Below, in pieces: positions 3,135 to 28,139 of a stretch of 31,564 bases of DNA (within the stretch, counting starts at the first letter, position 1; every line of letters starts with the position of its first letter). The notes beneath the pieces are model-generated. The model was not told where the DNA came from, did not search any database, and saw nothing but the letters and a program-made list of their open reading frames with translations. The stretch comes from Larix sibirica (lineage: Eukaryota; Streptophyta; Pinopsida; Pinales; Pinaceae), in assembly GCA_004151065.3 (NCBI GenBank), contig NWUY0303605173.1, positions 1,739-33,302 of the forward strand, read 5' to 3'. The position numbers and the translations under genes are program-made.

Positions 3135-3206
3135 GTCCCTTTCGTCTAGTGGTTAGGACATCGTCTCCTCATGTCGAAGACACGGGTTCGATTCCCGTAG
3201 GGGATA
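3135..3206 (+). tRNA. trnE: tRNA-Glu gene, mitochondrial type, encoded anticodon CTC
   Basis: A complete 72-nt cloverleaf can be drawn. The acceptor stem GTCCCTT pairs with AGGGGAT through one G-T wobble at each of the first and sixth pairs. The D arm is GTCT/GGAC with an 8-nt loop. The anticodon stem is 3161-3165 with 3173-3177 and has a single T-T mismatch. The T arm ACGGG-TTCGATT-CCCGT is perfect. The sequence matches the native plant mitochondrial trnE as I know it, except that the anticodon loop reads TCCTCAT where TTTTCAT is expected. The gene therefore encodes C33 instead of the almost invariant U33, and anticodon CTC instead of TTC. Both differences are T-to-C, which C-to-U tRNA editing would reverse. 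CCA is not encoded, as usual. It lies about 980 bp upstream of nad2 exon 1 on the same strand. Confidence 0.93.
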
Positions 3207-3249: not shown

Positions 3250-3420
3250 CACACGCACCTATATGCATATCCATATATCATATCGATACATCCATAGATG
3301 GGTAGAAGATATATATTTAGATCCATATATGATATATATACATATATCCACACTCATATCCATATATCGATATGGAGACAGATATAATCCATACATAGAT
3401 ACGGATATGGATCTCCATCT
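3250..3420. repeat. AT-rich palindromic low-complexity tract after trnE
   Basis: Immediately downstream of trnE the DNA is made of overlapping variants of CATATATC, CCATATAT, GATATAT and ATACATA. Several are self-complementary, for example CCATATATCGATATGG around 3360-3376. The open frames crossing it are artefacts of this composition. A folded RNA here could mark the 3' end of an upstream transcript, but that is inference. Confidence 0.6.
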
Positions 3421-4185: not shown

Positions 4186-4338
4186 ATGTTCAATCTTTTT
4201 CCAGCGGTTTTCCCAGAGATCTTTCCCATTAACGCCACTCTAATTCTGCTCATTCATGGAGTTGTATTTAGTACCTCTAAGAAATATGATTATCCACCGT
4301 CAGCAAGTAATGTGGGTTGGCTTGGATTACTCAGTGTT
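4186..4338 (+). CDS. nad2: nad2 exon 1, NADH dehydrogenase (complex I) subunit 2
   Basis: Exon 1 encodes residues 1-51 of NAD2, a proton-pumping membrane subunit of respiratory complex I. The start MFNLF and the following PEIF.INAT, LLIHGVVFSTSKK, DYPP and SNVGWLGLLSV match plant NAD2. The ATG at 4186 gives exactly 153 nt, which is the exon 1 length I know from angiosperms. The frame is open upstream to 4111, but the extra N-terminus is not conserved. The exon ends at GTT, directly before an intron beginning GTGCGCC. Several residues differ from the family in the way expected before C-to-U editing: P6 (Leu expected), S39 (TCA to TTA, Leu) and A40 (GCA to GTA, Val). P14 is also unusual. The first transmembrane helix covers about residues 12-30. 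Confidence 0.95.
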
Positions 4339-5565: not shown

Positions 5566-5891
5566 GAGGGTGAGGTGGTTTTTCCGGAGTTTAGATCTGA
5601 TTGATTCCTTCACCTGGCTGCTTTCTATCGTAAAGCCAAAGACGCCCCCCCCCTGAATTGAGGACAAGGTACAACTGTTGGTAATTCCTACCTATAGGTA
5701 GGTAGGGGCGAACTCGAAGGCGTCTGGACATGATCAATATAACCTAGATCCGGGCTGGAATAGTAGCATATGCCATATACTCCTGCTGGGGGGCATCGAA
5801 TGCCCATCAGTTCCGAAAAGGTTCGCTCATGCGCATCCCACCTACCTACGGTTCCGCTAGTTCGCGCAAATCTGAATGAGTCATCACGGAC

Positions 5892-5925
5892 GAGCCACAT
5901 GCAGGGAAACTCGCATGTGTGGTTC
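5892..5925 (+). ncRNA. Group II intron domain V of nad2 intron 1
   Basis: This 34-nt hairpin is the catalytic core element. The lower stem is GAGCC with GGTTC, the upper stem is ACATGC with GCATGT, with a two-nucleotide GT bulge on the 3' side and a GAAA-containing terminal loop. It fixes the identity of the intron and the position of the 3' splice site downstream. Confidence 0.88.
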
Positions 5926-5941
5926 TGGCCGCCTTCGGTAT

Positions 5942-6333
5942 CTAATAACCATGCTTTTGCTCGCCGCTGGCGCACCTCTCCTAACTATCGCCCATTTTTT
6001 TCGGAATCATTTTTTGAGGAAAGACGATTCTACATATTTTTGCCAAATCTTTCCATTATTAAGTACGGCTGGTACCATCCTGATGTGTTTCGATTATTTC
6101 AAACAAGAGAGGTTTAATGCTTCTGAATCCATCGTATTAATTCTACCTCCTACTCGCAGTATGCTCTTTATGATCTCGGCTCATGATTCAATTGCCATGT
6201 ATTTAGCTATTGAGCCTCAAAGTTCATGTTTTTACGTGATCGCAGCATCAAAAAGGAACTCTGAATTTCCCACGGAAGCCGGCTCGAAATATTTGATTTT
6301 AGGTGCATTTTCCCCTGGAATATCATTGTTCGG
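5942..6333 (+). CDS. nad2: nad2 exon 2, NADH dehydrogenase (complex I) subunit 2
   Basis: Exon 2 is exactly 392 nt, the length I know for angiosperm nad2 exon 2. It encodes residues 52-181 plus the first two bases (GG) of codon 182. Conserved blocks are LLLAAGAPLLTIAH, TYFCQIF, STAGTI.MCFD.FKQERF, SMLFMISA.D.IAMYLAIE, CFYVIAASKR and TEAG.KYLILGAFS.GI.LFG, spanning several membrane helices of the antiporter-like core. It is open throughout. At least 16 codons look like unedited C-to-U sites, including R72 (CGG to TGG, Trp), S81, P89, S112, S114, P120, P121, R123 (to Cys), H132 (to Tyr), S134, P143, S146, P161, S166, P176 and S179. Exons 3-5 are absent, so the message must be completed by trans-splicing. 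Reading past 6333 yields only intron translation. Confidence 0.95.
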
Positions 6334-27900: not shown

Positions 27901-27930
27901 TCTTGGTGTTTATTAACGTATAAACTCCCA

Positions 27931-27956
<26 letters not shown>
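27931..27956. repeat. (AT)13 microsatellite
   Basis: Thirteen uninterrupted AT dinucleotides are followed by a short GT run to 27961. It lies in gene-free DNA and would be a length-variable marker. Confidence 0.97.
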
Positions 27957-27962
<6 letters not shown>

Positions 27963-28139
27963 TAAGTGACCCCCTTATCTATGAGCATATGGCATTTTAT
28001 TTCTTTGTTCTGCACGTCCCTTCCCTTATGGGTAGCAGCAGCTAAGTATCTGTATCCGTATCTGTATCGGGCTGAAGGGTTGGTTCAAGGCGTTAGCGCT
28101 CATTCTTCGTCCAGTGGTAAGGAAGGGTATTTGCTCATT

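Follow-up and report, generated by a model that had tools for sequence, protein, structure and literature searches.

Predicted C-to-U editing of two adjacent anticodon-loop positions in a mitochondrial-type trnE of Larix sibirica

The window analyzed here is the whole stretch of 31,564 nucleotides that corresponds to bases 1739-33302 of contig C15453 (33,302 bases) of the Larix sibirica assembly. Its single tRNA gene, according to both ARAGORN and Rfam at its cut-off, is a trnE, and no tRNA was found in the rest of the contig, i.e., the first 1,738 bases, before the window. Exons 1 and 2 of nad2 follow approximately 1 kb and 2.7 kb downstream of trnE on the same strand, with the 3' end of a group II intron between them (Table 1). 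This setting places trnE in mitochondrial DNA; alternatively, the whole stretch may be a recent nuclear copy. Rfam matches to miRNA families (3314-3412 and 27922-27967) and to U7 (1211-1254) scored far under the family cut-offs and were dismissed.

Table 1. Features of the trnE-nad2 region, in window coordinates
Feature	Coordinates	Strand	Remarks
trnE, native mitochondrial type	3135..3206	+	72 nt, full cloverleaf, CCA not encoded; ARAGORN, Rfam RF00005, stem check
Anticodon loop, positions 32-38, TCCTCAT	3166..3172	+	Direct reading of the sequence
C33	3167..3167	+	Position occupied by U in nearly all tRNAs; predicted C-to-U editing site
C34	3168..3168	+	Wobble base of CUC; predicted C-to-U site giving UUC
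nad2 exon 1	4186..4338	+	153 nt, open frame; match to plant Nad2 in complex I structures; end placed by eye at GTGCG intron start
Group II intron, 3' region	5890..5941	+	Directly before nad2 exon 2; Rfam Intron_gpII 39.4 bits (gathering score 40)
nad2 exon 2	5942..6333	+	392 nt, open frame, many C-to-U-correctable codons; Pfam PF00361; PDB plant Nad2, E 1.1e-58; both ends set by eye

The trnE gene has the complete cloverleaf of a functional native plant mitochondrial tRNA-Glu gene. The Rfam tRNA model RF00005 covers it end to end (54.2 bits, E 3.5e-9), and all stem pairs but one, 20 of 21, are standard. The pair that deviates, U30.U40, is presumably found in angiosperm trnE as well, and apart from it the gene has none of the broken stems or indels of a pseudogene. 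It also carries U11-A24, U13.G22, and A46 and lacks base 47, features that matter for charging by a bacterial-type GluRS. With three mismatches tolerated, the 28-nt core surrounding the loop matched at a single place in the window and was absent from 100 shuffled versions. A plastid origin was rejected because the plastid-type trnE-UUC of the assembly (L134) differs in sequence.

The loop reads TCCTCAT, where we take the normal plant mitochondrial sequence to be TTTTCAT. ARAGORN assigned the anticodon ctc, in agreement with the earlier note, which had read C33 and a CTC anticodon from the letters. Neither U33 nor a UUC anticodon is thus encoded, and both would be present only in an edited transcript. 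Predicted RNA folds gave -22.4 kcal/mol for a TT version of the loop and -20.5 kcal/mol for the CC version; nothing was drawn from these energies because neither best structure contained a classical anticodon arm.

How far the two cytidines depart from the usual state was gauged with a bacterial control, restricted to one tRNA-Glu stem sequence. In this fixed stem context, a pattern with C33 matched nowhere among the genome contigs searched, whereas the pattern with T33 gave at least 165 matches in at least 120 stretches. Among the 165 T33 matches listed, 150 have T34 and 15 have C34; C34 by itself is therefore an ordinary isoacceptor state. U33 is among the most constant bases of tRNAs, and the control counts agree with this. 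The genomic C at a site of conserved U, matchless in the control, thus suggests that C33, rather than the CUC anticodon, is the unusual part of the loop. Plant-type trnE patterns scanned in viral contigs returned nothing. Among ten mitochondrial-type tRNA copies picked by eye from those read, including a plastid-like trnW, C33 was present in two, trnE and one trnH, and T33 in the other eight.

A second intact trnE-UUC, which according to the earlier note would, together with a lack of expression of the window copy, have spoken against an editing requirement, was sought throughout the assembly (618 Mb, 19,862 contigs). The trnE core pattern, run with any base accepted at 33 and 34 and a tolerance of three mismatches, matched only at its place in the window. 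Neither pattern nor DNA search uncovered a second intact mitochondrial-type trnE in these 618 Mb, an absence of limited weight because short contigs may be missing (the shortest encountered has 11,372 bases) and the assembly is probably incomplete. Conifer genomes are far larger than 618 Mb. A shorter pattern from the 5' part of trnE matched the window gene and, with two mismatches, one other place that by eye is a tRNA-Gln. The tRNA-family search of the assembly scored 63 of 19,009 candidates and left the window trnE itself unlisted, and it is therefore uninformative on other trnE copies; the assembly tRNAs discussed here are a partial set.

The DNA search revealed one other trnE-like place, a relic on contig C18217 (L183, 4073-4125, +) that is 84% alike over trnE bases 17-72. 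It contains the stretch TTTTCAA and shows pseudogene signs (broken stems or indels), with an altered 5' part and an anticodon arm 3 nt short; neither ARAGORN nor Rfam called it. Aligned with one 3-nt gap, the relic has four mismatches to a T33T34 version of trnE versus six to the actual gene, making T to C the likelier direction of change at both sites. A free alignment to the actual gene introduces two gaps, one of which deletes exactly columns 33-34, and the support of the relic for TT is therefore only a likelihood, since the identity of its bases 33 and 34 depends on gap placement. By the simpler alignment, the decayed copy probably preserves TT as the older state, from which the intact copy differs in having CC. 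A relic derived from reverse-transcribed edited RNA would look identical to one that had inherited an ancestral TT.

The nad2 exons were compared codon by codon with plant Nad2, using a single chain for exon 1 and three chains for exon 2. Differences were found at 31 of 183 codons, or 29 of 181 once two codons past the exon end were dropped. C-to-T changes alone reverse 16 of these 29 mismatches; the next best direction, A to G, reverses three (four before the drop), and 13 of the 29 lie beyond C to T. Such a pattern marks an organelle with extensive C-to-U editing, here by the codon signature of a single gene, nad2. The compared codons include three GAA and three GAG, and because GAA is used in nad2, a GAA-reading tRNA is needed. 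One of the 13 mismatches beyond C to T is the codon at 4225-4227, which reads CCC against I in plant Nad2, a difference out of reach for C-to-U editing alone. Elsewhere in the assembly, broken nad2-like fragments with stops (L155 on C17905 and L156 on C19419) are perhaps nuclear copies, and an AT-rich contig (L146, C18103) with fungal-looking mitochondrial nad6 and nad4 frames, identified by eye, probably comes from an associated fungus.

Three trnH copies were read in the assembly. Two of them, L170 (C18082) and L171 (C18504), have exactly three C.A mismatches, one in each of three stems: acceptor (6-67), D (12-23), and anticodon (29-41); as their surroundings are identical over 1,738 bases, they may be one locus. 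The third, L169 (C18081:2000-2072, -), was not called by ARAGORN. It has 96 of 100 bases in common with L170 and L171 but carries T6 and C33 where they have C6 and T33, and because of T6 it is left with two C.A mismatches, in the D and anticodon stems. It shares only about 100 bp with the other two, so that trnH occurs in two different contexts. In larch tRNA-His, editing is reported to repair the acceptor, D, and anticodon stems, the available part of the source giving no positions (PMC5295000). The C.A mismatches of L170 and L171 fall in the same three stems, and the loop of L169 represents a possible, candidate recurrence of C33 in trnH. A mitochondrial-type trnY (L138, 4870-4952) has an A5.C68 mismatch in its acceptor stem, another candidate C-to-U site.

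The plastid-type contigs of the assembly contain chlL, over its curated cut-off, partial chlN and ClpP family matches under theirs, and trnR-CCG. A stretch matching PF00361 (nad/ndh family) beside rps7, the latter identified by eye, has one TAG and two TAA internally and was taken for a broken ndhB. A larch plastid genome is described, in the portion of the study available, as having trnR-CCG and mostly ndh pseudogenes (PMC6619608). The plastid features make the assembly gymnosperm-like and suggest Pinaceae as the probable family.

We consider it probable that both C33 and C34 of the trnE transcript are edited to U, yielding the loop UUUUCAU and restoring both the UUC anticodon and U33. The window gene would then be a working mitochondrial tRNA-Glu gene whose transcript has both cytidines converted to U, either ahead of tRNA maturation or in its course. 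Editing at 34 would restore UUC and make both GAA and GAG readable, and editing at 33 would give back the uridine of the U-turn. The editor might consist of one or two nuclear-encoded PPR-type factors working on the precursor, and we infer that the edited tRNA-Glu is charged and used. Editing is favored because the gene is intact, no second intact copy was found in the assembly, nad2 has a C-to-U signature, and two trnH copies have mismatches in the three stems that are edited in larch tRNA-His. The earlier note had left a choice between editing of two adjacent loop positions and a decaying gene with glutamate tRNA supplied from elsewhere; these observations support its first option and fit the second less well. 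Taxus has one tRNA site among 974 editing sites detected, according to the part of the report available (PMC6971862). Such rarity of tRNA editing where it has been measured counts against editing of trnE, although ordinary RNA-seq may under-sample tRNAs. Speculatively, and we regard this as rather doubtful, position 33 could be edited recurrently among the mitochondrial tRNAs of conifers, and tRNA-Glu could stay inert until both cytidines are edited, which would gate glutamate decoding.

The main rival to editing is a newly decaying trnE whose decoding role falls to a nuclear-encoded tRNA-Glu(UUC) imported into the organelle. The assembly does contain nuclear-looking tRNA-Glu genes, with TTC in L124 and CTC in L127, and in Silene the mitochondrial fraction contains cytosolic tRNA-Glu after loss of the mitochondrial gene, as reported in the accessible part of that study (PMC8662596). 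The mitochondria of Silene are reported to be enriched in cytosolic tRNA-Glu(UUC), and this holds for S. vulgaris despite its retained gene, so that a mitochondrial trnE need not be the sole source of tRNA-Glu (PMC8662596, same portion). We nevertheless consider decay unlikely: the window gene has kept 20 of its 21 stem pairs, decay does not favor two adjacent changes that are both of the editable kind, and true decay looks like the relic, with its gap in the anticodon arm, altered 5' part, and lack of a tRNA call.

Editing might also act at a single site, for example restoring U33 and keeping C34, in which case the tRNA would read GAG and GAA would be left to a tRNA encoded elsewhere or imported. 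Bacterial CUC tRNA-Glu with T33 is common (15 of the 165 matches listed), and the annotation of two Oxyria mitogenomes lists trnE-CUC as well as trnE-UUC in the part of the article available (PMC11594269). This arrangement seems to us a slim prospect, given that it calls for a split supply for one amino acid, that the assembly yielded no mitochondrial-type trnE-UUC, and that anticodon editing has been inferred for Pinus trnE (PMC6971862). An assembly or base-call error at both positions, conceivable in one contig of a large draft assembly, is barely credible, as a pair of neighboring T-to-C errors is improbable and, being local, would leave the edited anticodon already inferred for Pinus unexplained (PMC6971862).

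Editing at both positions, the reading that we prefer, has a partial precedent in print. The mitogenome paper on Taxus cuspidata flags the Pinus trnE-UUC in its Table 2 with the remark “Anticodon is inferred to be edited” and does likewise for three tRNAs of Cycas and two of Ginkgo (PMC6971862). All five gymnosperms tabulated there possess trnE; that of Cycas, Ginkgo, Welwitschia, and Taxus is unmarked, which counts against the preferred reading (PMC6971862). Like the window gene, Pinus trnE-UUC (MF991879.1) is a gymnosperm mitogenome gene present in one copy with an anticodon inferred to be edited to UUC, a likeness of description rather than of letters, the table giving neither position 33 nor the sequence. 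The available parts of an Abies alba report (PMC9703787) and of a study on two larches, Larix gmelinii and L. cajanderi (PMC6619608), list trnE-UUC without an editing note, which likewise counts against it; either C34 is not common to all Pinaceae or the names were normalized. Platycladus has two trnE-UUC copies, according to the excerpt available (PMC9174605). The C34 half of the prediction is thus already in print as an inference for Pinus (PMC6971862). In the open-licence literature searched, no statement on C33 of trnE or on measured trnE editing was found; the parts that are new relative to this literature are C33, the adjacent C33/C34 pair, and the possible recurrence in trnH. A C33 beside an altered wobble base offers a clean test of whether editing acts on a folded anticodon loop or on the precursor only, and this trnE also offers a test of whether an organelle can depend on editing for its glutamate supply.

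Among known systems, larch tRNA-His is likewise a conifer mitochondrial tRNA whose precursor undergoes C-to-U editing, as described in the available part of the source (PMC5295000). Its sites repair stem pairs, in contrast with those of trnE, which sit in the anticodon loop and repair none. In the plastid tRNA-Leu of Takakia, the same partial source reports C-to-U editing at the first anticodon base, from CAA to UAA (PMC5295000). The earlier note had called editing of trnE unusual on the grounds that one of the positions defines the anticodon, which was overstated in view of the anticodon editing reported in Takakia and inferred in Pinus, Cycas, and Ginkgo. The Takakia case, as far as that source could be followed, differs from trnE in that it concerns a plastid, a moss, one site, and an intron-containing tRNA. 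Marsupials and Leishmania also edit anticodons, with machinery and in lineages unrelated to plant editing. A marsupial mitochondrial tRNA and the Leishmania tRNA-Trp resemble the predicted case in that anticodon editing alters codon reading (cited in PMC4284800, available in part). Finally, Oxyria is a seed plant with a mitochondrial trnE annotated as CUC. In the portion of the article available, its likeness to the larch gene is one of annotation name, without sequence or base 33, and it differs from that gene in being listed beside a trnE-UUC (PMC11594269).
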